Shown here: in pieces, positions 19,207-40,633 of the stretch
Layout of the letters: every line of letters begins with the position of its first letter
How positions within the stretch are numbered: the stretch's first letter is position 1
From: an uncultured Alistipes sp.
GTDB taxonomy: Bacteria > Bacteroidota > Bacteroidia > Bacteroidales > Rikenellaceae
Reading direction: 5' to 3'
NCBI GenBank assembly: GCA_944326035.1
Contig: CALVCS010000003.1
Span: 248,001-312,000 of the forward strand
DNA: 64,000 nt
The notes under the pieces: model-generated
Told to the model about the DNA's origin: nothing
Databases searched by the model: none
What the model saw: the letters and a program-made list of their open reading frames with translations, nothing else
Program-made: the position numbers and the translations under genes

Positions 19207-19246
19207 GAGTGTGCAAAGGATGTTTAATTTGTAATTTGAAAACGAT

Positions 19247-19645: not shown

Positions 19646-19676
19646 TGCCCTGAACCGCTCGGTTCGGGATATTTGG

Positions 19677-19721: not shown

Positions 19722-19751
19722 TCGCTCATGAACGAATGAAAAAGAACCGTT

Positions 19752-20168: not shown

Positions 20169-20180
20169 ACGGAGAGGGGT

Positions 20181-20693
20181 ATGAGGAAGAGTATGTCGAA
20201 TTGCACGAAAGCATCCCTTTTTTTTCAGGATATTACCGACTCGACGACGCAGGTGCGCAAAGAGCATAGCTTTACGTTGCAACGTTTCAGTTACGAATGT
20301 GTCCGGAAGCGCAATAGCCATGGACTGCCGTATGGCCCGACGCTGGGATCGGTGCTGCGATTGACGCTGAAGTCGCTGCCGGATGGCTATCTGAAGGAGC
20401 TGTATCAACGGCTGTCGGATGCGACCGCAGCGAGCTATTCGATCGTCACCGATGCGATGTTCCGTCCCGATAACCAGGCGCTGAACGATTATGCCGGGGC
20501 GATGATCGTGACCGGTTGGGTCATCGATGTCGATGAGGCGTATCATTCGGGCGAGGCAGACGCCTGGGACACCTCCCCGCAACGCGTCGAAACCACGCAT
20601 GAGCTGATGACCACGACGGTCGATCTGTTGCTCCAGTCGATCACCTATGTCGGAAATAATAACTACCAGAAAACATTGCCCATCAATTATTAA
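20181..20693 (+). CDS. T6SS-associated protein, probable divergent Hcp-like
   Basis: A 170-residue protein with no signal peptide. The order of predicted strands and helix (SVLRLTLKSLPDGYLKELYQRL, then SYSIVTDAMF, then AMIVTGWVIDVDEAY and a final long strand) resembles the Hcp layout, with an unusual Arg/Lys-rich N-terminus. Similarity is weak and the assignment is by pattern and position between Hcp copy 3 and vgrG. An ATG 12 bases inside is an alternative start; the chosen ATG 20181 follows a GGAGAGGGG purine run. It could instead be an effector chaperone or an adaptor between tube and spike. Confidence 0.5.
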   Translation: MRKSMSNCTKASLFFQDITDSTTQVRKEHSFTLQRFSYECVRKRNSHGLPYGPTLGSVLRLTLKSLPDGYLKELYQRLSDATAASYSIVTDAMFRPDNQALNDYAGAMIVTGWVIDVDEAYHSGEADAWDTSPQRVETTHELMTTTVDLLLQSITYVGNNNYQKTLPINY

Positions 20694-20707: not shown

Positions 20708-23700
20708 ATGGAGAACAATACCTATAAGCTGACGATCAGCGCACTCAATACGGAGAACGGAACCAGCTCGATCGAGCTGACCTATAACGGTCAGCCGGGA
20801 ACCACCCCGTCGGTCGAGATCAAAAAAGGAACGCAGTCCTTCGTGAATTGCAAGATCAGTGCGTTCAGCTATGCGAAAGAGATCTATCGGCCGGGGAAAA
20901 TCCGTTTTACCCTGTTGTTGACCTGGAGCGGGGGGACTCCGACGGTCGATACCGTTTATAAGGTTTTCCAGTCCAGTGTGGTGCAGTTGCAGACGACGGT
21001 GGATGGTACTTCGTTTGTGATTGCCGAGCAGTATTTCGTGTTTCAGGTGCAGCTGGAGCAGCGATCGGGGGCCAGCACCAGTATGTATGCCCACATCGAG
21101 GCGTATAGCCCGGAACAGTACCTGACGCTGGATTCCTATTGCAAAGCGTATACGGGGCGGAAGTTTATCGCCGATATCGTAACCAATTCGTCGCTGTGGC
21201 CCGATGCGATTCCGTTGTTTTCGGACCAGACGAAATTCTCGAAACTGTGTCTTGCGAGTCCGCAGTTTCTGACCTATGAGGTGACCCGGAAAAATCCGCA
21301 GACCCAGCAGGACGAGAAGAAAACGTACGAATATATCCAACCCTATCTGGTTCAGTACAACGAAAGTTTTTATGACTTTTTGGTTCGGGTAGCCAATCGA
21401 TGCGGCGAGTTTCTGTACTATGAAAACGGAAAGCTGCATATCGGTTGGGAGAAACCCTCCTCGACGGTTTACCTGACCCACTTCACCTCGATCCAATACA
21501 TGCAGAGCCTGACGACGGCCTGGACAAGTGGTTCGCTGACGGAGGTTCACAACGACTATACGACCAACACGAATCGTTTTACGGTCCAGAACGCGAAGAT
21601 GCGTCGGGATTCGGAGGTGGCTTTTGATGAAAATCTGACGCCGATTCCTCCTAAAGATCAATATACAAGCTGGCAAGATTATGCGGCCTGGCCGGAAGCC
21701 TTCTGGATCGATGCGCTGACGACGGCCTTGAACGAGACGTCGCTGACCGACATCATTGCCAAATTGGTCTGGCAGACTTCGACCACCCGATATGATAGCG
21801 AAAATTCGGCTAAAAGTGCCAATGATGACTATAAGGAGACCCATTTTACCGGGGCGTATTTGCAGGAGAGGGTCTACAAATCTTCTCAAGGCAACAGCTC
21901 ATCATCGTCTCCCCAGGAGGAGAACGGCGATGCCATCGATGATAAGGATGGCATCTATCTGTACAGTTCGACGCCGCGAAATGCTGATCAGGTTCCGTTC
22001 GGGCTGGCGTTTTATGCCGATATTCAGCGCGGGATCGCTCAGGCCGAACGCTCCAGAATCCGGGTGGTGTTGGAAAATCGGTTTTATGCAATTTCGTTAG
22101 GGAGTTTGATCACCTTTGATGCCGCCGCCAGCCAGTGTTACATCGTGGTCAAGATGGACCATACGGTGACCAGCCAGACCCAGCAGACCGCCCAGACGTC
22201 GACCGCTTTCTCCGGGACCTCTGCCTCTATGGCCCCTCCGACGGGGCTCGTTGCCGACGAGACGCCCAGCGAAATGCTCGTGATCGAGGCGATTCCCTAT
22301 GATGCCAAGGCAGCCAAAGTTTATCCGCCCTCGGCGCAGGTCGGAATGATTCGCGTGGCCAAGGCTCAGCGGGCGATCGTGACCCACAATGACGACCCCC
22401 TGAAAATGGGACGGGTCCGGGTGCGGTATCCCTGGCAGCAAGAGTCGGACGATTCGACCCCGTGGATTCGGATGGTGCAACCGATGGCCTCCAAAGAGAG
22501 CGGCTTCCGCTTCCTGCCCGAAGAAGGCGACGAGGCGATCATCAATTACGAAAACGGAAATATCGAACGACCCTATGTCGAAGGGATGCTCTTCTCCGCA
22601 GAACGATCCCCGTCGTATGGCCATAAAGGAAGCAGTAGCCGTATTTTTTCTTCGCGAAACGGCCACTCGATCATCTTCTCCGATCCGAAGGGGGACTCCT
22701 TCTTCAAAAGTTTCTTCCCGGTTCTGGGGACCCTCTCTACCTTTATTCCGCAGTTGAAGGTTCCGATGGGTTCCAGTGACTTTAAAAAAGCGTCCGGGGG
22801 GATTCAGCTGACGGATGAATATGGGTTCTATTCGATCTCGATGTCTTCGGACAAGCGCGCCATCTCGATCGATTCGCCGCTGGGAAAGGTGAGCCTCAAT
22901 GCCTTTACGGGGATTACGATCAGTGCGCCGAACGGAGATATCAAAATTGCCGGTAAAAATATCGATATCGTGGCCGGCAATAACCTGACGCTCCGCTCGG
23001 GGAAAAATAAAGGCGGAGTCCTCCCGACGAGCCTGCAGCGGACTGTGGGCGATGTAGCCGGGTTTGTGGTCGGGAAGTTCGCGCTGGTTGATCTGTCGGT
23101 TATCCGGACAGTGTTCGAAACCTTCGTGCGTCCGATCGCCGGAACCTTGCGCCTCTCCTCCAAGCGCTATCTCTGCCTCGAGGCCGGGAAGGGCTCCGCG
23201 CAGATCATGGGACGCCGCACGGTTCAGAAATTTACCGACTGGAAAAGCAATCCGATCGGAAAATCGGCTTTCGAGTCCTATACCATTGACCGCAATCCGG
23301 CCAATAAGGTGTTTACGTCGAACATCCCCCATGAACTGGAAACGTTGTTGGATGGGATCCGACAGCTGTTCAAGGAGCATCGGATCAAGAGCGCGGAGAT
23401 GCTCGATCGTTTCGAACGGTATCAGCAGGTACAACAGCTCCTGGAGGCGATCGATCTGGCCTCTTTTGTCAAGGATACCCATATCGAGACCCCCCAGAAG
23501 ATCTTCCAGGATGCGAAGAGTCACCATGGACCCAAAGTCTTGGAGATGCAGTCGCAGATTGTGGGGAAAGATCCCGCCCTGATCCGTCGGGTGCGTACAA
23601 GGGTCGGTCGACTCAACCGGTTGGCTGTCTCGATTTATGAAAACTGGTATGATGAGGAGGCACGATTCGATCGTCAATTCGAGGCCCAACCGGTGGCACA

Positions 23701-24229
23701 CGATTCGATGGTGCGCCAGCAGATTCATGCGCTGATGGAACCCGTGTTGCCTTCCACGTGGGTGTCGAAACAGGACGGGGCCGAGGCGGTCCGGGGTATT
23801 CAAATCCAGGAAGAGAAGTTCCGTCAGGTGATGTTTTTGGGGCTGAAATGGTTGGTCAGCAATCAGAAAACGGAAGAGGGGCAGAACTATACGGATAGCA
23901 TTACGATGCAAGGGGTCGGTTCTCCGAAGGATTATGATCGGCAGCACTGGATCGCGTTTGTCGATCAGATCTCGGCCACAAGTGTCGTCGCCGACATCCT
24001 GAAAACGCTCGCTAAAGGCCTGGTCAAGGCCGATTCCTTCGATGGGATGCTGGACCAATACGTTTGGGATCGAACGGACTACGGCAAGATTCTCTTGTCC
24101 GACGAGAAAGGGAAAACGCTCCATATCGATCAGGGAACCCTGCAGACCTATATGGAATCCCGGAACCAGGTCGATGATGTCGATCATACGATAGATGAGA
24201 TCAAACGTATCCTCCATCGACTGGATTAA
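20708..24229 (+). CDS. tssI: T6SS spike protein VgrG/TssI with a long C-terminal extension
   Basis: VgrG trimers form the puncturing spike. The 1173-residue protein has a gp27-like base (about 1-540), an OB-fold gp5-like domain beginning VTHNDDPLKMGRVRVRYPW (residue 558 onward) with WIRMVQPMASKESGFRFLPE, and a gp5 needle-type stretch (SAPNGDIKIAGKNIDIVAGNN, about 740-760). Bacteroidota VgrGs usually stop near 600-700 residues; here about 400 more follow, mostly helical, with several Arg/Glu/Gln-rich segments and a late KILLSDEKGKTLHID strand motif. No enzymatic motif is visible in the extension. It may be an effector, an effector-binding platform or part of an enlarged spike. The gene starts 14 bases after the preceding stop. 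Confidence 0.92.
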   Translation: MENNTYKLTISALNTENGTSSIELTYNGQPGTTPSVEIKKGTQSFVNCKISAFSYAKEIYRPGKIRFTLLLTWSGGTPTVDTVYKVFQSSVVQLQTTVDGTSFVIAEQYFVFQVQLEQRSGASTSMYAHIEAYSPEQYLTLDSYCKAYTGRKFIADIVTNSSLWPDAIPLFSDQTKFSKLCLASPQFLTYEVTRKNPQTQQDEKKTYEYIQPYLVQYNESFYDFLVRVANRCGEFLYYENGKLHIGWEKPSSTVYLTHFTSIQYMQSLTTAWTSGSLTEVHNDYTTNTNRFTVQNAKMRRDSEVAFDENLTPIPPKDQYTSWQDYAAWPEAFWIDALTTALNETSLTDIIAKLVWQTSTTRYDSENSAKSANDDYKETHFTGAYLQERVYKSSQGNSSSSSPQEENGDAIDDKDGIYLYSSTPRNADQVPFGLAFYADIQRGIAQAERSRIRVVLENRFYAISLGSLITFDAAASQCYIVVKMDHTVTSQTQQTAQTSTAFSGTSASMAPPTGLVADETPSEMLVIEAIPYDAKAAKVYPPSAQVGMIRVAKAQRAIVTHNDDPLKMGRVRVRYPWQQESDDSTPWIRMVQPMASKESGFRFLPEEGDEAIINYENGNIERPYVEGMLFSAERSPSYGHKGSSSRIFSSRNGHSIIFSDPKGDSFFKSFFPVLGTLSTFIPQLKVPMGSSDFKKASGGIQLTDEYGFYSISMSSDKRAISIDSPLGKVSLNAFTGITISAPNGDIKIAGKNIDIVAGNNLTLRSGKNKGGVLPTSLQRTVGDVAGFVVGKFALVDLSVIRTVFETFVRPIAGTLRLSSKRYLCLEAGKGSAQIMGRRTVQKFTDWKSNPIGKSAFESYTIDRNPANKVFTSNIPHELETLLDGIRQLFKEHRIKSAEMLDRFERYQQVQQLLEAIDLASFVKDTHIETPQKIFQDAKSHHGPKVLEMQSQIVGKDPALIRRVRTRVGRLNRLAVSIYENWYDEEARFDRQFEAQPVAHDSMVRQQIHALMEPVLPSTWVSKQDGAEAVRGIQIQEEKFRQVMFLGLKWLVSNQKTEEGQNYTDSITMQGVGSPKDYDRQHWIAFVDQISATSVVADILKTLAKGLVKADSFDGMLDQYVWDRTDYGKILLSDEKGKTLHIDQGTLQTYMESRNQVDDVDHTIDEIKRILHRLD

Positions 24230-26061: not shown

Positions 26062-26451
26062 ATGGCGAAATATGTGTGTATGGGGGCGGTGTTGAAGTGT
26101 TCGTTTGGACAGATTCCCTCGACGTTGATGGTGACCAACCCGATGCGGCCGATGATTCAGAACAAACCGAAAGCTACGGTGATGGATTTTGCGCCGATGG
26201 TCAATGTCATGCCTTTCGGGATGTGCACGACGTTAAGCAATCCGATGGTGGCTTCTGCGACGGCGGCGGCCATGGGGGTTTTGACGCCGATGCCTTGTAT
26301 TCCGGTTCCGGTGGGTCCGTGGATGCCGGGTGGCAAACAGTTGATTACCAATATGCCGGCCCTGCTCGATAATTGTAAGTTGACGTGTGCGTATGGCGGC
26401 AGCATCTCGATCAATATGCCGGGACATACCGCTCCTTCCGAGGGTAAATAG
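26062..26451 (+). CDS. PAAR-like (DUF4280) T6SS spike tip protein
   Basis: A 129-residue protein with the DUF4280 PAAR-like pattern: the start MAKYVCMGAVLKCSFG, the repeated Pro/Met turns PSTLMVTNP and GVLTPMPCIPVP, and the end LTCAYGGSISINMPG. Cysteines at both ends (C6, C13 and the late pair near NCKLTC) fit a metal-stabilised cone. PAAR-like proteins cap the VgrG spike and recruit effectors. This one has no effector extension, so any cargo is probably non-covalent. It is the last gene of the left arm. Confidence 0.88.
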   Translation: MAKYVCMGAVLKCSFGQIPSTLMVTNPMRPMIQNKPKATVMDFAPMVNVMPFGMCTTLSNPMVASATAAAMGVLTPMPCIPVPVGPWMPGGKQLITNMPALLDNCKLTCAYGGSISINMPGHTAPSEGK

Positions 26452-29447: not shown

Positions 29448-30680
29448 ATGAAAAAAGAGCGTCCGAACCCCACGATGTTGTCGCTCGGGGGAGAGGAGAT
29501 ATTCTCACAGCTTTCCTGGTTCAAACGCGATCGCGTGGAAACGGCGAACGTAATGGTGGTGGGCTGTGGGGCTCTGGGCAATGAGGTGCTGAAGAATTTG
29601 GCGCTGTTCGGGGTGGAACATCTGGTGCTCGTGGATTTCGACACCGTCGAACCCTCGAACCTGACCCGTTCCATCCTCTTTCGGGAGGCCGATGCGGCCG
29701 ATCGCCGGGCCAAGGTGGTCGTGGCAGCCGAACGGTTACGGGAGATCAATCCGGCCATAGAGGTGTTGCCTTTGGTCGGCGATATCTGTCACGAGGTCGG
29801 CTTGGGACTCTTGCGACGGATGCAGGTGGTGGTGGGGTGTGTCGATAACCGATGGGCCCGCTATTGCCTGAACCGATTGTGCATGCGAGCCGGTATCCCA
29901 TGGGTGGATGGCGGCATCGATGGGCTGGAAGGAACTGCACGGGTGTTTGTGCCTGGGAAAAACTGTTATGCGTGCAATCTGGGTCCGGAGGCCCTGAAAG
30001 AGTTGTCGTACAGACTCTCCTGCTCGGACGTGATTCGACGTAACGAACAGGCCGGCAGAGTGCCGACGACACCGGTGATCGCTTCGATCATCGGGGCCGT
30101 GGAGGCTCAGGAGACGATCAAACTACTGCACCCGGATGAAGTGGCCCGGGGCGAATTGACCTCGCTGTGCGGCCGGATGTTCTATTATGAAGGACAGCAT
30201 CTCGGGACCAGGGTGGTGGAGTTTGCGGGGTACGACGAAGAGTGCCCGGTGCACGAACGCTGGGACCCGATCGAAACGATGGATATAACGACCCAATGGA
30301 GGGTTGGTGAGGTATGGCAACGGTTGTCCGAACGGTTCGAAGATCCGACGGTGGAGATTCCGCTGCGCGATTATCGCTTTGTTGATGATCTGGTTCTTCG
30401 GGAGGACGATCGCCATATACCGGTAATGCGGCCCGACTACGCGGTCGAACGCTTTGTGGAGGAGGATGCCCGGTTGAGGTATCTGCCTTTCCAGGCGTTG
30501 TATCAACACGAGATCGACTGCCTCGATCGGAATTTCCCTTACCCGGAGCTGACGTTGGCTCAGGTGGGGATTCCGGCCTGGGAGGTGTTGTCGGTGAGAA
30601 CGGCCCACGGCATGCATTATGTGGAGTTGGCTGATGAGGATCGTTACGCGGAACGTTTAAGTCAAAACAGAGAGGGATGA
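29448..30680 (+). CDS. ThiF/E1-like ubiquitin-activating-type enzyme in the T6SS
   Basis: A 410-residue adenylating enzyme. Residues 30-235 are the E1/MoeB/ThiF Rossmann domain: GCGALG (40-45), VLVDFDTVEPSNLTR with its catalytic Asp and Arg, AKVVVAAERL, GCVDN (130-134) and a late IIGAVEAQETIKLL. A zinc-type CYAC (173-176) pairs with CPVH (266-269). C192 in SCSDV sits where ThiF has its reactive cysteine, a candidate for Ubl thioester formation. The C-terminal 130 residues are extra; LTLAQVGIPAWEVLSV (368-383) resembles a beta-grasp strand pattern, as in E1 ubiquitin-fold domains that recruit E2. Its stop overlaps the tssG start by four bases (ATGA). No thi or moa genes are nearby, so a cofactor role is unlikely. 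Confidence 0.9.
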   Translation: MKKERPNPTMLSLGGEEIFSQLSWFKRDRVETANVMVVGCGALGNEVLKNLALFGVEHLVLVDFDTVEPSNLTRSILFREADAADRRAKVVVAAERLREINPAIEVLPLVGDICHEVGLGLLRRMQVVVGCVDNRWARYCLNRLCMRAGIPWVDGGIDGLEGTARVFVPGKNCYACNLGPEALKELSYRLSCSDVIRRNEQAGRVPTTPVIASIIGAVEAQETIKLLHPDEVARGELTSLCGRMFYYEGQHLGTRVVEFAGYDEECPVHERWDPIETMDITTQWRVGEVWQRLSERFEDPTVEIPLRDYRFVDDLVLREDDRHIPVMRPDYAVERFVEEDARLRYLPFQALYQHEIDCLDRNFPYPELTLAQVGIPAWEVLSVRTAHGMHYVELADEDRYAERLSQNREG

Positions 30681-31498
30681 TCCAGCAGGAGATTGATTTG
30701 TGGAATATCAGCGCGGAATGTTTGCTGAACTACCTCTATCCGGATGCAACGGATCAGTGGGAGGTGGAGTGTGCCGGCACGTTTTACCGGAACTATAGCC
30801 CGGATGTTTTGGCGGTCGACGATCAGCATAAACGGGTTCGTTTGGCGCGGGACAGTTTCCTGCGGTTGTTGCCCCAGGGGGTGATCGCTCCGGATGATGC
30901 CCTCAAGGGGGGCGATTTCGAACAGAAATACGAACGCCTCCGAAAAAAAGAGGAACTGTTGCGGGAGTTGTTCAAACCGGTCGATACGTTGGCCTTTCGG
31001 ACACGTCTTCACCTGGAAAAACAGGCGGCACAGTTGTCATACGATAAGTTGCCGTTTTTGTTGAAACGTTATTTCGGTTACGACCTCTCCCAGGAGGAGA
31101 ATCCCTATATCCGTCGGACGGCTCCGTTGTTGTTGCTTGTCTCGCATTTGCGGGCCAACTTTGCCTTTATCGCCCAGCTGCTGAAGCAACTGTTTGCGTG
31201 CGAGGTGAAGATGCACGTCGGCCAATATACCTGGGAGGAGGGCCCTGAATATGCCCAACCCGCCATCGAGTATCGGTTGATGTTGCCGGGCCTGACGGCA
31301 GAGGCCTATCGGGCACTGAACCGGACGATCGAGCCCTTCCGGGCATTTCTCTGTGAGTGGTTCATTCCGTTCGATACCCGTTGCACGATCGTGGTCCGAC
31401 AACCCCATACCCCGTTCGAACCGGGCGATACGCTGATCTTGAACTACAATACGGAACTCGAAGCAGATTCATCAACCCAGAATACGGACAGTAAGTAG
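30677..31498 (+). CDS. tssG: T6SS baseplate subunit TssG
   Basis: A 273-residue protein. The C-terminal half carries the TssG layout: LLLLVSHLRANFAFIAQLLKQLF, then a strand region CEVKMHVGQYTW, and a final beta domain ending IVVRQPHTPFEPGDTLILNYNTEL. TssG binds TssF in the baseplate wedge. The N-terminal half is divergent from proteobacterial TssG. Translational coupling to the E1-like gene and close spacing to tssK (9 bases) put it in one operon with tssK, tssE and tssF. Confidence 0.75.
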   Translation: MIQQEIDLWNISAECLLNYLYPDATDQWEVECAGTFYRNYSPDVLAVDDQHKRVRLARDSFLRLLPQGVIAPDDALKGGDFEQKYERLRKKEELLRELFKPVDTLAFRTRLHLEKQAAQLSYDKLPFLLKRYFGYDLSQEENPYIRRTAPLLLLVSHLRANFAFIAQLLKQLFACEVKMHVGQYTWEEGPEYAQPAIEYRLMLPGLTAEAYRALNRTIEPFRAFLCEWFIPFDTRCTIVVRQPHTPFEPGDTLILNYNTELEADSSTQNTDSK

Positions 31499-31507
31499 GA
31501 GCGCGTT

Positions 31508-32650
31508 ATGAATATCAATGCAAAAATAGATTGGGAAGCCGGTATGATGCTGTCGGCGCAGACGTTTGTCGAACTGGACGAGTGCCTGACCCGAAAACAA
31601 GAGGCGGTCACGCGGGCGGCCAATGGCAATCAATTCGGACTCATTCCCTTCACGGAGTTCGATAACCGGGGCGGATTTGTGCGCAACAAGCTGGAGATCG
31701 AACGTTTGGCCTGTATGGCCCTGCTACCTTCGGGCAAAATTCTGCATATCGACGAAAAGGTGGTGGTATCCGTACCGCTGGTCTATGGCGACGAATATTA
31801 TCTGGCGTGCGGTTTCGGGGATAAGGAGACCGGCTTCGATGTGAAAACGGTGCCGTTTGTGCGGCCGGAATATACCTATGGCATTTATGCCCTGAACGAG
31901 CTGGAAGGGACCGATCTCTTTCCGGTGATGAAATTTAAGGTCAACGACGGGGTCTTTTTGATCGATGAGTCCTATATCCCGCCCTGTCTGCATCTGTCGT
32001 CCGACCGTCGCTTCTCCGACTACCTGACCAAACTGGCCGAGAAGGTGGCCGTGCTGGCGGAACATCCCAACCTGGAATCCGGCGAGGGCAAACGGGCCTT
32101 CCAACGCTATGCCTACCTGTTGAAACAGTACGATACGAAGCATCGTACCAGCCATTTTTTCCATCTGACGAGCGAGATCGCCCAGGCGGTCGATTATTAT
32201 ATCGTGACGCCGCATACCGAGACCCCGGTCGCGGTGCACGCCTATTCGGAATATGACATCGTCCGCTGGCTGGAGTGGTTGGACGCGTATCTGCACAGCG
32301 CCGCGACGATCCTGGATAAGGTGGTGCTGGAGGATCACACCATCGACTTCGAGGCGTTGAAGGAGCAGGTCAAGGCGGAACTCTACGAACGCCTCTATCC
32401 GGAGTTGTACGATCGTCTCTACGAAACGTTGGCGCAGAAACTGACCGCGGAAATTTCCGAATCGCTGATGGCGAAACTGCTCGACTATCTCAACCATCAG
32501 TTCAAAACCGACCTGCATGATCGTTTGTCGGGCGAGCTCTCCGAAGAGCTGGCGGAAAAACTTTTCGACAGCCTGTATGAAAGTTTGTACAATGCGCTGT
32601 ATGTGCCGGTGGAAAAAGAAGAACAGGACGAATTTACGCCCATAATCTGA
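31508..32650 (+). CDS. tssK: T6SS baseplate-membrane connector TssK
   Basis: A 380-residue protein with the TssK N-terminal signature IDWEAGMMLSAQTF (the family has W-x-EGM-x-L-x-x-QHF) and the head-domain pattern LACMALLPSGKILHID. Its N-terminal shoulder binds TssF/TssG; the C-terminal head docks to the membrane complex. Here the C-terminal 100 residues are unusual: a run of Leu-Tyr-rich heptad-like segments (ELYERLYPELYDRLYETL and relatives), suggesting a coiled coil in place of the usual head. It lies 6 bases before tssE. Confidence 0.85.
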   Translation: MNINAKIDWEAGMMLSAQTFVELDECLTRKQEAVTRAANGNQFGLIPFTEFDNRGGFVRNKLEIERLACMALLPSGKILHIDEKVVVSVPLVYGDEYYLACGFGDKETGFDVKTVPFVRPEYTYGIYALNELEGTDLFPVMKFKVNDGVFLIDESYIPPCLHLSSDRRFSDYLTKLAEKVAVLAEHPNLESGEGKRAFQRYAYLLKQYDTKHRTSHFFHLTSEIAQAVDYYIVTPHTETPVAVHAYSEYDIVRWLEWLDAYLHSAATILDKVVLEDHTIDFEALKEQVKAELYERLYPELYDRLYETLAQKLTAEISESLMAKLLDYLNHQFKTDLHDRLSGELSEELAEKLFDSLYESLYNALYVPVEKEEQDEFTPII

Positions 32651-32656
32651 CGGGTT

Positions 32657-33103
32657 ATGTCTATTTTGCTGCCCTTGGAGGTGACGGATGGCCGATTGCT
32701 CCGCGCCTCTACGACCAAACAAGCCGTCGATGCGTTCATCGAGTTGTTGTTGACCACGCCCTGTCGGAGTTGCGTGTCGGATCCGCGTTTCGGGTTTGTC
32801 TTCAACAACCTGAAGTTTGAAATTTTTAATGAGAATGAAGGGGTCATCTATAACTCGGGCGATAAGGAGGGCGTGGAGACGGAGCTGTATAGTAAGAAGG
32901 TCTCCGGGACGTCGCGTAGTCTGAATACCTTTGCCGCCGAGCTGAAAGAGGCGATCGAACAGTATGAAAAAAGAGTGACGGAGGTTGCCGTGACCATGAC
33001 CTATTTTAAGGGTCAGCGCAAAGTACAGATCCATATCGAAGGCGTGTTGGTGGAGGACAACGAGCCTTATGTCTATACCTCCAGCATTAACCTCTGGAAT
33101 TAA
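32657..33103 (+). CDS. tssE: T6SS baseplate subunit TssE (gp25-like)
   Basis: A 148-residue gp25-like protein: SILLPLEVTDGRLLRAS, CRSCVSDPRFGFVF, FAAELKEAIEQYEKRVTEVAVTMTYF and a last strand KVQIHIEGVL. TssE starts sheath polymerisation at the baseplate. The strict proteobacterial LxxRxxE motif is not clear, as in other Bacteroidota forms. Position between tssK and tssF supports the call. Confidence 0.85.
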   Translation: MSILLPLEVTDGRLLRASTTKQAVDAFIELLLTTPCRSCVSDPRFGFVFNNLKFEIFNENEGVIYNSGDKEGVETELYSKKVSGTSRSLNTFAAELKEAIEQYEKRVTEVAVTMTYFKGQRKVQIHIEGVLVEDNEPYVYTSSINLWN

Positions 33104-33151
33104 CGCCGTGCCGGAGTGGCATTCGGATGCGGCAGGAAAAAAGGAAAGGCC

Positions 33152-34849
33152 ATGAAACAGACGATATTCACGACACGCCAACGAGCCGAAGAGCTTCTCA
33201 AAGAGGCGATTTCGATTTGGGAGCATAGCCCCCATAGCGACCAGCTGGAGGGCGTGGAACACGATCCGGTCATCTCGCTATTCCTGACGGCATTGGCCTA
33301 TCAGGCCAATGAAATCGATCACGAGATCGAACAGTTCCGGACGGACGTTTTGCAGGAGTTTGTCCAGATGCTCATCCCCTATGAACGGGTACATGCCCTG
33401 CCGGCGACCGCCGTGGTCGAAGTGGTGCCCGACGATAAGAGTACGACGCCCTGGTTGGATCATCAGGTGAACTTTGCGCTCGCGGGGACGAACTTTTCGT
33501 TCATTCCGCTGCTCCGTACCCGGGTGTTCAATGCCGCCGTGACCTCCGTCGTACGTTTGGATGCCCGCCGCTGGAAGGTGAACCTGCAGTGTAAGGAGCC
33601 GGTCAATAATCTCTCCGGCATGACGTTTATGGTCGGGAATCCCCATTTCCAGGATCTGAAGCTCTTTGCAAATGGCCATCCGCTTCCGTTGATCAAGCCT
33701 TGGGATTATGCCGATTTGCCGTTGGATCGCTGCTTCTCGATGGGTAATCTGCTCTATAACCAGTCGCCGATTTTCCAGGCCAGTCATACCTGGTTTGATC
33801 TGTTCGCCCAGCAAAACGTGCGTCTGTATGGGGTCGATACCTATAAAACCCCGGCCAGCCAACCGTATCCGATGGATAACATCGAGCTGGTGTTTGAGTT
33901 TCAGGGGATCGATGACGACTTCGTGTTCGATAAAACCCAGTTGACGTTGAACTGTACGGTGCTGATCAATGCGGCGGTGCGTTCGACGACCTTGTCCTCC
34001 TCCACACCGATCGTCCGGCTGTCGGGCAATCCCGGGGAGGGTGAATCGTGGCAGTTTCTGCATCTGATCCGGCCGGCCGAGACCCAAATGTTCCGCGATA
34101 CGCCCATCGAGCTGCGCAAGATGGCGGCGGATCGTTTCAACGAGGCCCAGCTGGTGAAATGGGCCAGTACCCTGATCAGTCGCTTTTCGTCCGATTACTA
34201 CGCCTTCCAACAGATCGAAGGGCTGCGCGAAGGGGCTGTGATGGATGCGTTTTATGGTTTGTTGAAGAAAATGGCGGAAGGGATAGCCAAAGCGTCCCAG
34301 AAACACGACTCCGGACTGTACCTCCTGCTGAAGAACGAACATGGCTTCCACCCGAAGGAGGTCAGTTTGCAGATCGACTATCTGGTGACCAACGGGAGTG
34401 CGGTGAATACGGCCTTGAATGGGAAAAGTCAGTTTACGATTGTGGGAGTGTCTCCGTTCAGAGGGGTCCGTTTGTTGGCGGATCCGATGCCCGGGTACGA
34501 TGAATGGTCGGGCGTGGATGCCGAAAACAGCCTGGCACGTTACTATATGATCACCCAGGATCGGCTGGTGACGCCGGCCGATATCAAAGTGTTCTGCTAC
34601 AACGAGCTGGCGATCCGTTTTGGCATCACGAACGAGATGATTGCCAAGATTCGGGTTCGTCATCTCCGACATACTGAACGGATGCATTGTGGATTTGAAA
34701 CGCAGGTGTATATTACCCTGCACGATAATCCGTATATTAGACGCAGTTTTCAGGAGAAGATCCCTCAGACCGAATGGGTGTTGCAGAAGATGATCGAGGT
34801 GCGAAGCACGCATGTGTTGCCGGTGCAGGTCAATATCGAGATTGTCTGA
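33152..34849 (+). CDS. tssF: T6SS baseplate subunit TssF
   Basis: A 565-residue protein with the TssF hallmarks: FLTALAYQANEIDHEIEQFRTD, then LIPYERVHALPATAVVEV (the family pattern of a tyrosine followed by a Pro-rich strand), and the late RLVTPADIKVFC segment. TssF and TssG form the baseplate wedge with TssE. I chose ATG 33152 (MKQTIFTT); the frame extends 12 codons upstream but the extra residues are not family-like. This is the last gene of the baseplate group, followed by a 299-base gap. Confidence 0.9.
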   Translation: MKQTIFTTRQRAEELLKEAISIWEHSPHSDQLEGVEHDPVISLFLTALAYQANEIDHEIEQFRTDVLQEFVQMLIPYERVHALPATAVVEVVPDDKSTTPWLDHQVNFALAGTNFSFIPLLRTRVFNAAVTSVVRLDARRWKVNLQCKEPVNNLSGMTFMVGNPHFQDLKLFANGHPLPLIKPWDYADLPLDRCFSMGNLLYNQSPIFQASHTWFDLFAQQNVRLYGVDTYKTPASQPYPMDNIELVFEFQGIDDDFVFDKTQLTLNCTVLINAAVRSTTLSSSTPIVRLSGNPGEGESWQFLHLIRPAETQMFRDTPIELRKMAADRFNEAQLVKWASTLISRFSSDYYAFQQIEGLREGAVMDAFYGLLKKMAEGIAKASQKHDSGLYLLLKNEHGFHPKEVSLQIDYLVTNGSAVNTALNGKSQFTIVGVSPFRGVRLLADPMPGYDEWSGVDAENSLARYYMITQDRLVTPADIKVFCYNELAIRFGITNEMIAKIRVRHLRHTERMHCGFETQVYITLHDNPYIRRSFQEKIPQTEWVLQKMIEVRSTHVLPVQVNIEIV

Positions 34850-35148
34850 GCGTCCGGGGGAGCGTCGCTGACCCGAAGGGAGGCTCAGAGAAACCGGACC
34901 CACGGCGGTCCCAGACCTACGGATGTCCAAGGAGGGCACAAGCTGGGAGCGGTATACCAGATTGAAGGAACCATGAGATAGAAGAGCGAGATAGAAGGGA
35001 CCACGAGGGAGGTGAAAGAAAAACGGACAGGGAAAGGTGAAAACGGGCTGTGAGGTTTAGCAAGAGGGGAAGGTTTTGTGAGGCAGAAAGCTGCAGACGA
35101 TGAACCCTGGCCGGGAGAAAAGGTAATTGATTGCAAAAAATAGCGTTC
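34850..35148. other. Gene-free, purine-rich gap between tssF and the Ubl gene
   Basis: The plus strand is strongly purine-rich and repeats words like GAGATAGAAG-GGACCA (near 34976 and 34991). No gene is supported and I see no terminator. The Ubl-E2 operon may have its own promoter here, but no TAnnTTTG box is convincing. Confidence 0.5.
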
Positions 35149-35466
35149 ATGGAAGATTTCTTTTTAGATATTGTCTATAAGGATAAGAAGGTGCGGTTTC
35201 GGATCATCAATCCGCAGGCTCCTTTGCATACGCTGATGAATAATCTGCGGCATGCGATCGGCAAAGACGGACGGTTGATCTTCGACTTCCCGTCGATCGA
35301 TCAGACGGGGGCACCGCTGGATTATTTTTTCGGCAAAGAGGATCCGATGACGCATGAAGTCCGGGTATTGCGGCCCCGAATCGGGAAAACCGACCAGACA
35401 TTGGCGGACTACAATGTCAATAATGGCGATACGGTGTTTCTGATTCCCGATCCGTTCCCCGGGTAG
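35149..35466 (+). CDS. Ubiquitin-like beta-grasp protein (YukD-type), T6SS-linked
   Basis: A 105-residue protein with the beta-grasp order: strand FFLDIVYKDKKVRFRI, a helix LHTLMNNLRHAI, strand RLIFDFPSI, and the diagnostic last part QTLADYNVNNGDTVFLIPD (81-101), equivalent to TLxDYxIxxxxTLHLV of ubiquitin and to YukD/EsaB-like proteins. The chain ends PFPG with glycine as the last residue, so an E1 could adenylate it without prior trimming, though there is a single rather than a double glycine. ATG 35149 was preferred to TTG 35131. It lies 4 bases before the E2-like gene. Confidence 0.75.
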   Translation: MEDFFLDIVYKDKKVRFRIINPQAPLHTLMNNLRHAIGKDGRLIFDFPSIDQTGAPLDYFFGKEDPMTHEVRVLRPRIGKTDQTLADYNVNNGDTVFLIPDPFPG

Positions 35467-35470
35467 ACGA

Positions 35471-36145
35471 ATGGAAAACAGGGCTATGGAAACCGTGTCG
35501 AAAAATTGGACGGATTTCGATCCCCGGTCGTTGAGCGGAAGAAACCGTCGACTGTGGCACGAGTGGAGTCACCTGGATCGTGCGCTGATGGCTCGGCCGG
35601 AGATGACGTATCGCATCGTCCGTCGGAACGCCCAGGGGCTTCCGACGGCGTATGAGGTCACCTATCACCTGCGCTCCATCTGTGGGGTGGAACGGATCGA
35701 CCGATTGGAGGAGCGGACGGTGTCGCATCCGCCGCTGTTTGCCACGGAGTTTCGCTTGCGGATCACGCTGCCGGAAAATTATCCCTGTATCGACGCTCCG
35801 GCCGCATTCCGCTTTGTGACGCGGGACGAGGAGAAAGAGATTCCGCATCCGTGGCATCCGAATATCCGTTATTTCGGGGAGTTTGCCGGTCGGGTTTGTC
35901 TGAATACGCCCGACACCTATGCGGGATTAGCGTGGTGTGTGGATCGGATTGCCCACTATTTGAGCTATGATCGCTATCATGCCCGTCCGGAACCGCCTTA
36001 TCCCGAAGATCGTCAGGTGGCGGAATGGGTGGTCAGAGAGGGCGAACCGCGGGGATGGATCTACTTCGATGCGACGCTGAACGGAGAGGAGGGGAACCAA
36101 GAACCCCCGAAGAACGAAGGGTCGGGGAGACCCGTAGGAGGATAA
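35471..36145 (+). CDS. E2-like ubiquitin-conjugating-type enzyme in the T6SS
   Basis: A 224-residue protein with a UBC fold. FRLRITLPENYPCIDAPAAF (94-113) is the E2 beta-sheet and PxxYP block; HPN (129-131) is the oxyanion-hole motif; C143 in GRVCLN is the catalytic cysteine position, 12 residues after the HPN asparagine. AGLAWCVDRIAHYL is the following helix. A later Trp/Tyr segment and an acidic tail are additions, and the chain ends RPVGG. All catalytic features of an E2 are present. An internal ATG at 35486 is a possible later start. It is next to the Ubl gene and 17 bases before an exported T6SS protein. Confidence 0.85.
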   Translation: MENRAMETVSKNWTDFDPRSLSGRNRRLWHEWSHLDRALMARPEMTYRIVRRNAQGLPTAYEVTYHLRSICGVERIDRLEERTVSHPPLFATEFRLRITLPENYPCIDAPAAFRFVTRDEEKEIPHPWHPNIRYFGEFAGRVCLNTPDTYAGLAWCVDRIAHYLSYDRYHARPEPPYPEDRQVAEWVVREGEPRGWIYFDATLNGEEGNQEPPKNEGSGRPVGG

Positions 36146-36162
36146 ATGAAAGAGGGTGGTGT

Positions 36163-37317
36163 ATGAAACACTGGAAACAAATACTCTATGTGCTGTGCCT
36201 GATCGGTTTTCCGATGGGGGTCCAGGCTCAGATGGTCAAACACGTGGAGGTGTCGGCCAATCAGCCTTATGTGGATCATGTTACCCTGATGCCAGGGTCG
36301 TCCGACATGGATCTGCTGGTGAAGATTGCATTCGATGAACCGCAGAATAGCTTGACGGTCAGTCTGATTTCCTATCGGAAACTGTTCGTCTTCCAGGCTG
36401 ATGTCCGTTATTCGTCCGTCATTCGGCGCCGTCAGTTGCGGCCCGATAAGTTGCCCTATGTCGTGGCCTCGGACGAACAGGTGCGCTATCGCCTGACCAA
36501 ACCGTTGAAACGCTCGCTCCCGGAAGGGACGAAACACCGCTTCCAACGGTGGATCGAATACGAGGGTCTGCAACCCCAGCCGACCGACTATAAGATGGTC
36601 AACGATTACATCGAACAGCGGTTCGATATTCTGTATAAGGAGGCCAATGTGTCGATCACGTTACGCGATATTTTGGTCATGGAGGGTCCGTTGGCGCGCA
36701 AACATCCGCTGTATGAGCTCTTTTTTCAAACCGATTTGAACCGTACGTACGACATCACGATTCAGCGCGATCCCTGTTACGGCAAAGAGGCCGAGATTCA
36801 GGCGGCTGCCCAGCAACTGGAACATGTCAAGGCCGGTTATGCGGCCTTCAATCAACGTTTCGGACGCTCGTTGCTGCTCGGTACCTCCGACCTGAAACAG
36901 CTGTTCAACAAGATGAAATCCATGTTGTTGACCCAGTTCCCACGGCAAGAAGAGACGAATGCCTGTCCGGAAATTCAGGCCTATATCGACCAGTATAATC
37001 AATACGTGGATTCGATTCAAGCCGTTCAGGGCCGTTTCCGCGCCCCCTCGCGCTCCGGTACGCCTACGACCACCCTGGGATTGAGCGCCGATTACATCTT
37101 GACGACGGCTCGTCGCATCGATAATCAGGTCAATCGCTGGTTGTTGTCGTCGGACAAAATCGAAAAACGGGATCTGGAAACCGCCTGCCGGCAGTTGATC
37201 GATCAGGTGAGAGGGCATGTGGAGGGCGCAACGGAGATCAGTGCCAGCCAGCGTGCAGCCTTACGAATTTTCTATGAAGCGGAAAATTATTTCCGTCGGA
37301 CTTGTGTAACGCAGTGA
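36163..37317 (+). CDS. Exported T6SS-associated protein, candidate membrane-complex component
   Basis: A 384-residue protein with a signal peptide (MKHWKQILYVLCLIGFPMGVQA). The first third is beta-rich (VEVSANQPYVDHVTLMPGSSDMDLLVKIAFD); the rest is mainly helical with Gln/Arg-rich segments and a conserved-looking CYGKEAEIQAAAQQL region. There is no lipobox. I recognise no enzyme motif. By position it may take a role like TssP or TssR, periplasmic parts of the Bacteroidota T6SS membrane complex; that is an inference from context. The next gene starts after 5 bases. Confidence 0.6.
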   Translation: MKHWKQILYVLCLIGFPMGVQAQMVKHVEVSANQPYVDHVTLMPGSSDMDLLVKIAFDEPQNSLTVSLISYRKLFVFQADVRYSSVIRRRQLRPDKLPYVVASDEQVRYRLTKPLKRSLPEGTKHRFQRWIEYEGLQPQPTDYKMVNDYIEQRFDILYKEANVSITLRDILVMEGPLARKHPLYELFFQTDLNRTYDITIQRDPCYGKEAEIQAAAQQLEHVKAGYAAFNQRFGRSLLLGTSDLKQLFNKMKSMLLTQFPRQEETNACPEIQAYIDQYNQYVDSIQAVQGRFRAPSRSGTPTTTLGLSADYILTTARRIDNQVNRWLLSSDKIEKRDLETACRQLIDQVRGHVEGATEISASQRAALRIFYEAENYFRRTCVTQ

Positions 37318-37322
37318 GGGGT

Positions 37323-38174
37323 ATGGGAAAAGTCAAACATATCCGACGAAGCGGCTTCCTTCTCTTTGGGTTGTGGGGATGGATGCTCTGCTGGGGCTTT
37401 CCCGCCTGGGGACAGAGCGAGCAGGATTACTATATCGATGCCGGACAGATTCTGGAGATCGAAAGCCGGATGCTCTATTTTTATGACCAGCTGCAGGAGT
37501 TGGCCACGCAAATTCCACAGTATACGGAGGAACAACTTTCGAACGCCGATCAGCAGGTGTTGACCATCGATACTAAATGGAATACCTACTACCAGTCGCG
37601 ACAGATGGAGATTGCCGAGGACGACTCTCTGCTGCAGATCGTGGCTAACTACCAATTGGCCAAGCAAAGCGTCTTGGACTCGATTGCCAGTAAAAAGCAT
37701 TTTTACGAGGCGGAGAACCGTTTTGCCGAGGCGGAGACATTTTTCTCGACCCAGGACAGTGTCTATCAGCGTCTCTACCATACGGCGATGGAATATTCGT
37801 TGGTGAAGGCCCTGGCCCCGAAGCTCGAACAGCTCAAAGGCCGGGAACAGATGCTCGCCGGCGAAATGCAACAACAGTATGAAACCGCCAAAAGCCTGAC
37901 GCAGGAGTTTGCGTCGTTTCAGGCGCGGTTTCAGCTGCTCGAGGAGCAATACCTCACTCTGAAAAATAGATCCGAACAGATCCAGGCCCTGGAATATAAA
38001 TCCTGGCTGCAACGGATCAAAGATTATTTATACAGTTTGGCCGCCGTAGCGATGATTCTGATGTTCATCAATATGTTGCAAGCGAAGTTGAAGGTGCTGA
38101 AGCAGGCCCGCGAAAATGCCAAAAAACTGCGGGAGATGATGAACAACGATGAAACGGACTATCCGACCATCTGA
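37323..38174 (+). CDS. Exported coiled-coil protein with C-terminal membrane anchor
   Basis: A 283-residue protein with an N-terminal signal sequence (about 1-30), a long helical/coiled-coil body (about 40-225, rich in Glu, Gln, Leu), one membrane helix (236-253, YSLAAVAMILMFINML) and a basic cytoplasmic tail (KLKVLKQARENAKKLR). The topology places the coiled coil in the periplasm and anchors it in the inner membrane. It would fit a TssO/TssP-like strut of the membrane complex. I chose ATG 37323; an upstream TTG in frame overlaps the previous gene. Confidence 0.6.
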   Translation: MGKVKHIRRSGFLLFGLWGWMLCWGFPAWGQSEQDYYIDAGQILEIESRMLYFYDQLQELATQIPQYTEEQLSNADQQVLTIDTKWNTYYQSRQMEIAEDDSLLQIVANYQLAKQSVLDSIASKKHFYEAENRFAEAETFFSTQDSVYQRLYHTAMEYSLVKALAPKLEQLKGREQMLAGEMQQQYETAKSLTQEFASFQARFQLLEEQYLTLKNRSEQIQALEYKSWLQRIKDYLYSLAAVAMILMFINMLQAKLKVLKQARENAKKLREMMNNDETDYPTI

Positions 38175-38203
38175 AAATTGCCAAATTCGATAACCGTCAC
38201 GTC

Positions 38204-40633
38204 ATGATGAATCGTCGTCACCTCTTCCTCTTGTTGATGCTGTTCCTGCTGTGGGGCATGGGGAGCTGCACGCAGTTTACGTCGAACAATAAAGCCTATC
38301 AGGAGGATGTTTCGCTGAACATTCTCAGCATCGATTTCGACTCGACGTATAAGCATTTGTATGCCAATGTACAGATCAATGACAGCATTACGGCGCTCTT
38401 GTTGAATAACGATACCTCGCTGCATTTCAAAACCGAAGAGCTGATGAAGGGGAAGATGTACGATCCCCGGACGCAGCCGGTTTTGGAGGGCTATGAGAAT
38501 TTGAAAATTCAGGAACTGGCCCAATTGAATCTGGATATTTTGGTGTTGGCGGATCTGACACTGGACTCGGTGGAGGTGGCGAATCAGCAGCGCATCATCC
38601 GTAATCTGGAGAAACTCTTTACATACAATACCTTCCGGATCGCTTTTATGGAGGGTCCGCAGGTTTCGGAAACGATGGAGGCGACCGATTATGTGCTGGA
38701 TAACTATTTCAAGGCGGTGTCAGCCGACAAATATCTTTACCGTTCCATGTTGTCGAAACTCGAGGAGCTGCACCGGGATACGGTTCCTGCTACGCCGCTC
38801 TCGCGGCCGGATACGCTTGTACAGCGTCCTGCGCAGAAGGTGCTGATCGTCTTTTCGGACGGGAAGGTGTATGATGCGGATAACGCCCCGCTGGATCCGA
38901 AATACTTCACGCTACAACGCGAATTGACCCAGGAGGCGGACTCCCTGCTCGGGCTGTCGGTGTTTTATGTTCATCTGTCGCCGTCGTCCGCGACGACGCC
39001 GGGGGGCGCGCTCTCGGGGGGCGTGTTGCCGACGGATGAAGAGTCTAAAAATTTGTTGACGCTGTTGTGTCAGAAGACCGGCGGCAAGTACCTGGAGGCC
39101 GTGGATCCCAATCAGGTCGTCAACGATATCGTCAATCAGTTCAATCCCGATAAGGCGGATTATCGGTTTACGTTTGTCAATCCCGACTTTAAGATCTATC
39201 GCGGGATGGAACGTACCCTGCAGATTGCTTGTTATGCGGGAGATAGCCTGATCGCGTCCGATTATCTGAACTACAATGCGGGGAGTGTCTATAACCCGGT
39301 GATCATCAATGGGCTGTCGACGTTTCAGGTGATTGTACAGGGGGGATTGTTGGGGTTGTTGACGATCGGTTTGCTCTATCTCTTCTTTCAGTTTATCCTG
39401 CCGGCGATCCGCTACTTCGTCTTTAAACGAAAATACGTTACGCGGTATACGCATAAGAATATGAGCTATAACGGGATCTTGGTCGATCAGTCCTGTTATT
39501 TCTGTAAGGCGCCGTTTGTCGAGGGCGATGAGATTGTGGTGAAATGCCAGCATGTGATGCACAAATCCTGCTGGGACGAGAACGAATACAAATGCCCCGA
39601 ATATGGCCGCAACTGCAAACACGGCAGTCACTACTACAACCGGACGAATCTGCTGGATGCTCGTAACGCTTCGTTTTATTTCTCGTGGATTCTGGCCGGG
39701 GCATTTGCCGGGTTGATCGCCTGGATCTGTTTTACGGCCAACGCCCACTATAACGACAATCTGTTCCTGGTCAAGCTGATCCATTTGATCTTCAACATCG
39801 ATCCCCAGTCGTCACAGGCCTCGAAGCTGATGGAAGAATATGGCAATCACCTCTTCTATCTGCCTTTCTATGGCATGAATATCGGGTTCTTCCTGACGCT
39901 GTCGTTGAGCTTGCTCACCAGCCATGGACGGTGGCTCTGGAAACGATCCCTGGTGGTGGGGGCCAAATCCATTGTGGGGGGAATCTTCGGTTATGTCTCC
40001 TTCTTTTTCGGATGCCTGCTTTCGATCTCGTTGAACTTTAGCGACAACTCGTTCCTGATCGATTGGATCCCTTGGATGCTCAGCGGTTTCCTGATCGCCT
40101 TCGTCGTGGCCTATGGCACCGATATCAAACTGAAAAAGGCGTTGGTGGGAGCTGCCATCTCGATTGTGTTCGGTTTGGGATCCATGTATTTGTGGTCGTT
40201 CGCCTTTAGTGCGCAGATCGATACCCGGGAGTTTCTGCTGTTGAGTTACATGATCTATTGCATCGGGTTTGCGGTCAGTGTAGCGGCCACCAGTCCGAAG
40301 TCGGAACGCTATTTCCTGCGGGTAGAGGGCCCGATCAAAGAGATGGATATTGCCGTCTATAAGTGGATGAATGCCGCGATGCGAAACAAACGGGTGTTGA
40401 TCGGGAAATCTGTCAATTGCGATTTGCAGATGTCGTGGGATATTACCAGTCCCATCGCGCCGGAACAGGCAGAGGTACGGATGATCAATGGCTATCTCTA
40501 CCTGATTGCGCTGGAAGAGGGGGTGATGTTCGATAAAAAACCGCTGAAACCGAACCTAAAAAAACGCCTGTATCACGGGTCGAAGTTCCTCATTGGGAAA
40601 ACGACCTTTACGTACATTGAAAAGGATTTGTAG
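38204..40633 (+). CDS. vWA-like / RING-H2-like / polytopic membrane / FHA-like protein of the T6SS
   Basis: An 809-residue multidomain protein. An N-terminal export signal with possible lipobox (GSC, C22) precedes a vWA-like domain (about 110-330, ILVLADLTLDSVE and KVLIVFSDGKVYDAD). A membrane helix (about 375-405) is followed by basic FKRKY, so the next part is cytoplasmic: C431, C434, C448, H450, H453, C456, C464 and C471, the spacing of a RING-H2 zinc finger except that the final pair is C-x6-C rather than C-x2-C. Six more membrane helices follow (about 480-700), then an FHA-like C-terminus (RVLIGKSVNCDLQM ... GSKFLIGKTTFTYI, about 728-809). The RING would be the E3-type partner of the E2 nearby. 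It may also be the TssN-like inner-membrane core. Confidence 0.7.
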   Translation: MMNRRHLFLLLMLFLLWGMGSCTQFTSNNKAYQEDVSLNILSIDFDSTYKHLYANVQINDSITALLLNNDTSLHFKTEELMKGKMYDPRTQPVLEGYENLKIQELAQLNLDILVLADLTLDSVEVANQQRIIRNLEKLFTYNTFRIAFMEGPQVSETMEATDYVLDNYFKAVSADKYLYRSMLSKLEELHRDTVPATPLSRPDTLVQRPAQKVLIVFSDGKVYDADNAPLDPKYFTLQRELTQEADSLLGLSVFYVHLSPSSATTPGGALSGGVLPTDEESKNLLTLLCQKTGGKYLEAVDPNQVVNDIVNQFNPDKADYRFTFVNPDFKIYRGMERTLQIACYAGDSLIASDYLNYNAGSVYNPVIINGLSTFQVIVQGGLLGLLTIGLLYLFFQFILPAIRYFVFKRKYVTRYTHKNMSYNGILVDQSCYFCKAPFVEGDEIVVKCQHVMHKSCWDENEYKCPEYGRNCKHGSHYYNRTNLLDARNASFYFSWILAGAFAGLIAWICFTANAHYNDNLFLVKLIHLIFNIDPQSSQASKLMEEYGNHLFYLPFYGMNIGFFLTLSLSLLTSHGRWLWKRSLVVGAKSIVGGIFGYVSFFFGCLLSISLNFSDNSFLIDWIPWMLSGFLIAFVVAYGTDIKLKKALVGAAISIVFGLGSMYLWSFAFSAQIDTREFLLLSYMIYCIGFAVSVAATSPKSERYFLRVEGPIKEMDIAVYKWMNAAMRNKRVLIGKSVNCDLQMSWDITSPIAPEQAEVRMINGYLYLIALEEGVMFDKKPLKPNLKKRLYHGSKFLIGKTTFTYIEKDL

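Follow-up and report, generated by a model that had tools for sequence, protein, structure and literature searches.

Does a bacterial injection machine make use of ubiquitin-type protein conjugation? The question is raised by a locus of an uncultured Alistipes sp., lying in a stretch of 64,000 nucleotides (the window; contig CALVCS010000003.1, positions 248,001 to 312,000) of a 2.3-Mb genome (G000). An earlier note, made from the letters of this stretch, had described an activating enzyme (E1), a ubiquitin-like protein (Ubl), a conjugating enzyme (E2) and a RING-like membrane protein as a complete conjugation set integrated into a type VI secretion system (T6SS) locus. The four proteins were found again at the positions given there, on the + strand and with tssG, tssK, tssE and tssF between the E1 and the Ubl, and folds, invariant catalytic residues and co-inheritance bear out that a ubiquitin-type set is built into the T6SS. 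As judged from sequence, a conjugation set of a previously predicted kind belongs to the core of a T6SS subtype without detectable TssN, since the operon is fixed, its key residues are invariant, the E2 co-occurs with the sheath protein TssC and no TssN was detected in six E2-positive genomes. The operon has the order E1-TssG-TssK-TssE-TssF-Ubl-E2-orf384-orf290-RING809, all on the + strand:

29448..30680, + strand: E1-like Ubl-activating enzyme, a ThiF core with a conserved C-terminal domain of about 130 amino acids (Pfam ThiF 6.8e-50)
30677..31498, + strand: TssG-like baseplate protein (position; a family hidden Markov model matches open reading frames (ORFs) at the TssG position of other T6SS loci)
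31508..32650, + strand: TssK baseplate protein; C-terminal third divergent, with a conserved P-x-I end (NCBIfam TssK)
32657..33103, + strand: TssE, gp25-like (Pfam GPW_gp25 1.1e-9)
33116..34849, + strand: TssF (Pfam T6SS_TssF 9.1e-7)
35149..35466, + strand: ubiquitin-like protein of 105 amino acids with the end DPFPG-stop (beta-grasp AlphaFold2 model)
35471..36145, + strand: E2-like conjugating enzyme with H-P-N and a catalytic-type Cys (Foldseek, conservation)
36163..37317, + strand: orf384, with a signal-like N-terminus (N-terminal hydrophobic segment; present in 79/80 loci)
37302..38174, + strand: orf290, with a single C-terminal transmembrane (TM) helix and a short basic tail ending YPTI (sequence; tail conservation)
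38204..40633, + strand: RING809, a predicted membrane E3 (RING ligands, TM helices, Pfam matches of distant relatives)

How firmly this arrangement is kept was followed in loci retrieved by the E2 alone, which gave 648 protein matches at E 0.001 (the best 120 listed) and 127 places in a scan of species genomes, the best 80 of which were analysed (stretches L023-L102; some scanned stretches, such as L013 and L023, duplicate one locus). The nine genes E1-TssG-TssK-TssE-TssF-Ubl-E2-orf384-RING keep one order and one strand in all 71 complete loci of the 80 (71/71), which argues that the grouping is not due to chance. In each of the 9 incomplete loci the sequence ends at most 160 bases from the last gene, on the side where genes are missing. 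TssF, Ubl and E2 are present in 80 loci, TssE and orf384 in 79, TssK in 77, TssG and RING809 in 76 and the E1 in 75. Because the loci were chosen by the E2, they indicate that the E2 implies a T6SS baseplate, the converse not being demonstrated. Homologous loci that lack or scatter these genes, which the earlier note had named as the case that would speak against it, did not turn up in this E2-based retrieval, and one TssC-positive genome, G268, is without the set. The note had left out orf384 (36163-37317) and orf290 (37302-38174), which are also conserved. The mean pairwise identity of the enzymes and their modifier (Ubl 0.78, E1 0.59, E2 0.59) stands beside values of 0.52 for TssE, 0.50 for TssK, 0.48 for TssF, 0.46 for TssG, 0.42 for orf384 and 0.39 for RING809. 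Carriers of the set are found among gut bacteria, Alistipes and Prevotella for example, and the named ones include Xylanibacter ruminicola, Mediterranea massiliensis, Parabacteroides distasonis and Millionella massiliensis. The sheath and tube genes form a block apart from the set and variably placed, and in the window clade PAAR and VgrG genes flank the operon.

Residue and tail counts were taken from L023-L102 and the window after a length filter, and n therefore differs between proteins; a profile of orf290 drifted onto RING809 and its counts were discarded, the orf290 set being defined by position (67 of 76 loci plus the window). The E1 is closest among solved structures to UBA7, Uba1 and SAE2 (2.8e-25 and weaker), ahead of MoeB (3.1e-19), and matches many E1-type models, in NCBIfam none above the curated cut-off. 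Its residues C131, C173, C176, C192, C266 and H269 are invariant (74/74), with the motifs C173xxC176 and C266xxH269, and C192 is the candidate catalytic cysteine. The C-terminal domain of about 130 amino acids was checked as an E2-recruiting UFD domain and compared with the Ubl (hhalign probability 3-5%). From sequence alone the assignment of the Ubl is marginal, because its Pfam match to Rad60-SLD (0.0014) lies below the cut-off. Its AlphaFold2 model (pLDDT 87.8, pTM 0.76) has a beta-grasp fold and matches ubiquitin, SUMO, the EccD Ubl and bacterial Ubls, talin F0 heading one list; the P-G-stop end is present in 81/81, and the plasmid collection gave no match to the Ubl. The E2 matches Pfam UQ_con below the cut-off (0.0012), which a distant relative clears (9.6e-9). 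Since its best match among PDB sequences, E2-25K, is weak (0.038), a fold search was run with a model of the database copy P0001, which differs from the window in one residue and starts 5 codons later than the ORF (pLDDT 78.5), and all 50 PDB matches listed by Foldseek are E2s. Both models thus adopt the folds, UBC and beta-grasp, on which the earlier note had staked its case. Cys143 and the His of HPN, H129, are kept in 81/81, H126 and W128 in 80/81; one E2 match (G001) has a TGA inside the aligned range. NCBIfam at 0.01 and PADLOC at 0.1 gave no match for Ubl, E2 or RING809. The E1-E2-RING set looks competent for transfer, and we infer that it works.

On the membrane side, RING809 is laid out as a lipobox-like Cys22 (kept in 75/76), a vWA-like region, a TM helix, a C3H2C3 RING, a TM bundle and an FHA-like end. 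The RING-H2-like cluster of the earlier note corresponds to the putative zinc ligands C431, C434, C448, H450, H453, C456, C464 and C471, which are invariant by sequence (76/76) and of which the last pair has an unusual spacing, x6. The RING is placed past the first internal TM helix and a basic stretch, ahead of the TM bundle. Both Pfam matches, zf-RING_2 (5.7e-4) and Prok-RING_1 (0.0017), stay below the cut-off, and distant relatives of RING809 match VWA and FHA. In the window (DLTLDS), as in most rows of its clade, the DxSxS metal motif is missing from the vWA-like region; the motif is present in the forms of RING809 from G052 and from loci linked to extracellular contractile injection systems (eCIS), described below. 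orf384 is likely periplasmic. The tail of orf290 is probably cytosolic, and P and I of its YPTI-like end are kept in 68/68. The NCBIfam match of TssK (2e-14, below the cut-off of the model) covers residues 5-256 of 380, and its tail reads [FY]xPxI, with P in 78/78 and I in 74/78. Because the TssK match stops at residue 256 and the P-x-I end is common to the orf290 tail, a new docking contact is hinted at; the two likely cytosolic tails, with their similar C-terminal motif, perhaps meet one receptor. TssK of G204 also ends CPTI, and no such end is seen in TssK of G088 or of G262, G268 and G330, three genomes that have TssC without TssN (PF17555) or E2.

Co-occurrence was followed in 392 genomes of the window's order (requested completeness at least 90%), with PF17541 for TssC and PF17555 for TssN, which is the hub of the membrane complex known from Bacteroidota. 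The E2 was found in 6 of them, TssC in 16 and TssN above the cut-off in 7; a further 7 genomes gave TssN matches below it. TssC accompanies the E2 in 5 of the 6 (the exception being G052; association P 3e-7) and TssN in 6 of 7, and no TssN (PF17555) was detected in the six E2-positive genomes or in G000. Of 11 E2-positive genomes, a TssN match was absent in 9, below the cut-off in G067 and positive in G064. TssR (PF17643) was absent in 8/8 E2-positive genomes, yet it was absent too in the TssN-positive genome G137; as to TssO, TssP and TssQ, no such Pfam name appeared among the matches of the scanned window proteins, a genome-wide search not having been made. Within the window's genus the E2 is present in 5/9 genomes; four of these also have TssC, which none of the 4 E2-negative genomes has, and the fifth E2-positive member (G002, 79% complete) has VgrG adjoining the set. 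A sample of 296 genomes from the phylum yielded the E2 in 3 (G000, G499, G593). Excerpts of a study of nine Alistipes genomes state that no T6SS was found (PMC4714493).

Farther from the window, G204, G377, G397 and G088 carry E1, Ubl, E2 and RING809 within T6SS clusters in a gene order different from that of the window. Their E2s share 48%, 43%, 42% and 35% identity, respectively, with that of the window, and the E2 of G052 31%; HPN, the E2 Cys and the eight RING ligands are kept in all five, and the E1 cysteines in four, the E1 of G088 being incomplete in the stretch read. The Ubl ends IAG-stop in G204, G377, G397 and G088 and has four extra residues in G052; the Ubl of a distant relative matches YukD just below the cut-off (1.3e-5). 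A protein with a JAMM motif, thus of the deubiquitinase type, and, by eye, with a signal-like N-terminus lies between E2 and RING809 in 7/7 distant relatives (stretches L136, L137, L138, L139, L022, L162 and L165), matching Pfam JAB above the cut-off in G204 (just), G052, G499 and G593, and JAB or Prok-JAB below it in G377, G397 and G088. No such protein was found in the window or in 89 related stretches, and a search of 11 genomes that started from one of the distant JAMM proteins found none either; Prok-JAB gave sub-cut-off matches only, in three of four genomes. In a TssC tree of 25 rows, midpoint-rooted only, the window-type systems and G204 form one supported clade, with G088 and with G377 and G397 placed opposite it, closer to the TssN systems; G268, TssC-positive and itself without the set, groups with these last two E2-positive genomes. 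From this placement the set may be old in these T6SSs.

Two further genomes, G499 and G593, belong to one genus of another order and have nSTAND1-E1-Ubl-E2-JAMM-RING809 divergent from a PAAR gene. An eCIS (sheath, gp19-like tubes, CIS_tube, Pvc16) lies in the neighbourhood, at a distance from the set of about 20 kb in G499 and 42 kb in G593. They keep the E2 Cys, HPN and the candidate E1 Cys, and their Ubls end LVPG (G499) and LVPGGK (G593). RING809 of G499 matches VWA and FHA above the cut-off, and the vWA of the eCIS-linked RING809 has DWSGSM; its RING region presumably resembles a U-box. As side observations, KKIVIKK-like short stretches recur in L161, L162 and L165, close to the ends of both the nSTAND1 protein and the E2 and towards the start of an eCIS-region protein; in G052 (L022/L140) the E1-Ubl-E2-JAMM-RING set adjoins SrfB (PF07520 1e-213), and more Ubl-like ORFs follow downstream by eye.

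The rest of the window's T6SS lies upstream, the gene order from 14.4 to 40.6 kb being ClpV, TssB-like, TssC, four Hcp-like genes, VgrG, a PAAR-like gene, two genes on the opposite strand and the operon from E1 to RING809:

14423..16870, + strand: TssH/ClpV (Pfam AAA_2 and ClpB_D2-small)
16923..17387, + strand: TssB-like protein (position; a family model matches ORFs adjoining TssC in other loci)
17406..18779, + strand: TssC sheath protein (Pfam TssC 1.1e-104)
18814..20693, + strand: four Hcp/TssD-like genes, the last weak (Pfam TssD 9.6e-30, 1e-23, 5.6e-8, 0.068)
20708..24229, + strand: VgrG/TssI (Phage_base_V 1.4e-21)
26062..26451, + strand: DUF4280 protein (Pfam DUF4280 2.5e-31), which we take to be PAAR-like

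Judged by these matches the gene complement of sheath, tube, spike, ClpV and baseplate is present, TssB and TssG being assigned by position and family relationship; Pfam is silent on both window proteins, and one distant TssG relative has a weak PF06996 match (9e-4). No membrane-complex family was matched among the scanned window proteins in Pfam or NCBIfam. Also inside the cluster is a ribosome-recycling-factor-like protein (27056-27793, - strand; PF01765 9.6e-13), whose profile matches an ORF in 57/90 scanned stretches, some of them overlapping, and also catches an apparently ordinary ribosome-recycling factor (L153, 1.2e-63). According to excerpts of a T6SS survey, TssNQOPR is the sole membrane-complex type found in Bacteroidota, a membrane complex is present in whole or in part in all 443 systems detected, and a ubiquitin-like domain of TssN is proposed to dock the baseplate (PMC10781749).

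What, then, might the conjugation set do? The earlier note had thought of effector loading, control of assembly or the marking of spent sheath. We tentatively favour the reading, to which we would give not quite an even chance, that it attaches the Ubl to a subunit of the baseplate or membrane complex and so licenses the baseplate to dock at, or assemble on, the inner membrane. The E1 would adenylate the Ubl at its exposed C-terminal Gly and then carry it as a thioester, from which it would pass to the E2 Cys; RING809 in the inner membrane would bring E2~Ubl to a membrane substrate through its cytosolic RING. Action at the inner membrane is suggested by the place of the RING between TM helices, after a basic stretch, and by the operon shared with baseplate genes. 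TssK, TssE, TssF, TssG or the orf290 tail would be the best substrate candidates. The attached Ubl could serve as a docking or oligomerisation surface, like the role proposed for the TssN-fused ubiquitin-like domain, so that the baseplate would here be docked through covalent attachment of a free Ubl that has a ligase of its own. A bolder form, which we regard as rather unlikely, makes protein conjugation a step in assembling a secretion machine: this T6SS lineage would build its anchor by covalent Ubl attachment with the RING E3 itself as the membrane hub, where the other T6SSs of Bacteroidota rely on the Ubl-like domain of TssN. On this view the E1-Ubl-E2-RING(-JAMM) cassette would accompany contractile injection systems in general, T6SS and eCIS alike, and might predate TssNQOPR.

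Several results weigh against the docking reading. RING809 shows no detectable relation to TssN, and its interpretation as a TssR-TssN fusion was rejected (hhalign against eight TssN sequences, probability 2%). Exclusion between E2 and TssN among TssC-positive genomes reaches only P 0.058, or 0.042 without a fragment, and 5 of the 16 TssC-positive genomes have neither (G262, G268, G330, G278 with TssC on a 6.6-kb contig, and the fragment G281), so that lack of TssN does not require the set. Bacteroides mediterraneensis (G064), outside the 392-genome sample, carries the two together, the set in L028 and, on a separate contig, TssN with ClpV, TssF and TssE (L176), with no E1, E2 or RING in the 35 kb read of the TssN locus; both T6SS types can therefore share a cell and, in G064, not a locus. 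The set is carried by G052 without detected TssC and also occurs near eCIS, so its job may be more general; we know of no need for a membrane anchor in the eCIS kind of injector. The eCIS-linked RING809 retains 2/8 zinc ligands (L162 10346-12727, L165 11324-13672). Finally, conserved lysines are spread over several proteins and single out no acceptor: TssE K81 (80/80), RING809 K435, K712 and K720 (76/76), orf290 K240 (67/68) and TssK K195 (76/78), with none in TssF or TssG. Choosing an acceptor by conservation was not decisive, the many fully conserved TssC lysines stemming from 13 close sequences only.

Other explanations have to be set beside docking. The Ubl might be put on sheath, tube or other spent parts as a mark for recycling or quality control, read by ClpV or a protease; the genes for ClpV, sheath and tube do lie within the same cluster, and the JAMM protein of the distant relatives would permit reversal. 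We hold this to be unlikely, as the set is fixed to the baseplate genes whereas the sheath and tube block is separate and variably placed, and the E3 candidate sits in the membrane. It is likewise improbable that the Ubl is put on effectors or spike proteins for their selection or loading, or to hold them inactive until firing. The position of Ubl and E2 on the PAAR/VgrG side, about 2-5 kb away, in four distant T6SS loci would suit such tagging, as would the eCIS-associated set, which diverges from a PAAR gene and large ORFs taken for effectors. In the window clade, however, Ubl and E2 lie inside the operon after TssF, PAAR and VgrG merely flanking it, and the set is invariant, unlike cargo; the cargo of injectors is usually variable.

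A still less likely view sees in the set a module for regulation or defence, of the prokaryotic ubiquitin kind that has been predicted: a vWA-RING-FHA membrane sensor that gates firing of the injector or acts in immunity and merely co-travels with the T6SS. The vWA and FHA parts suit sensing, G052 has the set with a JAMM protein and SrfB and no TssC, and an nSTAND1 NTPase lies upstream of the eCIS-associated set; a nine-gene operon interleaved with baseplate genes in 71/71 complete loci, however, exceeds mere linkage. Least of all would we expect the Ubl to be a non-covalent structural part, with E1 and E2 as relics or devoted to other chemistry such as sulfur transfer. The YukD Ubl is structural, and two distant Ubls (G052, G593) have residues beyond the Gly. 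The EccD Ubl, which the Ubl model matches, is structural as well, according to an excerpt of the T6SS survey (PMC10781749). Yet HPN and the E2 Cys are kept in 81/81 window-clade rows and 7/7 distant relatives, with identities as low as 31%, the candidate E1 Cys in 74/74 and 6/7 (the seventh, G088, being cut in the stretch), and the Gly end of the Ubl in 81/81 and 5/7, which makes this very improbable.

The locus points to a further Bacteroidota T6SS lineage, one with no detectable TssN, in whose operon a ubiquitin-type cascade is fixed both between and beside the genes of the baseplate. Should this cascade be active, the assembly or control of a bacterial injector would involve covalent tagging of proteins, which would differ from the antiphage roles reported for Bil. 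The system is testable in the named strains, and loci with and without the JAMM protein form a natural series. The earlier note knew of no T6SS described with such a set in its core operons; in agreement with this, searches of open-access (Creative Commons-licensed) papers showed, among the matches listed, none that describes a T6SS carrying E1, E2 and RING.

Burroughs, Iyer and Aravind reportedly predicted, in 2011, prokaryotic E1-E2-RING sets with YukD-like Ubls. Those sets resemble the present one in their E1, HPN-type E2, RING and single Ubl, and differ in that the window set is fixed in a T6SS baseplate operon; the Prok-RING_1 match of our RING is weak, and the YukD match is seen in distant relatives only, below the cut-off. 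To our knowledge, no secretion link is known for the Caldiarchaeum cascade. That cascade is likewise a prokaryotic operon of eukaryote-like E1, E2, RING and Ubl, from an archaeon in contrast to ours (PMC5654768, PMC11354881). Excerpts on the antiphage system Bil (BilABCD) show a Ubl, E1 and E2 as in the window and a JAMM protein as in the distant relatives; the window type differs in its single 105-aa Ubl, which is not in tandem, its HPN E2, its RING and its tie to an injector, and no JAMM protein was found in the window clade (PMC11354881). The Ubl of EccD in the type VII secretion system is fused, whereas that of the window is free, ends in Gly and has an E1 and E2. With T6SSiii of Bacteroidota, as far as excerpts of the survey describe it (PMC10781749), the window type shares the phylum, a PF17541-family TssC, TssD, ClpV, VgrG and the TssK/TssE/TssF core; unlike T6SSiii, it is without detected TssN and TssR and has E1-Ubl-E2-RING together with orf384 and orf290.

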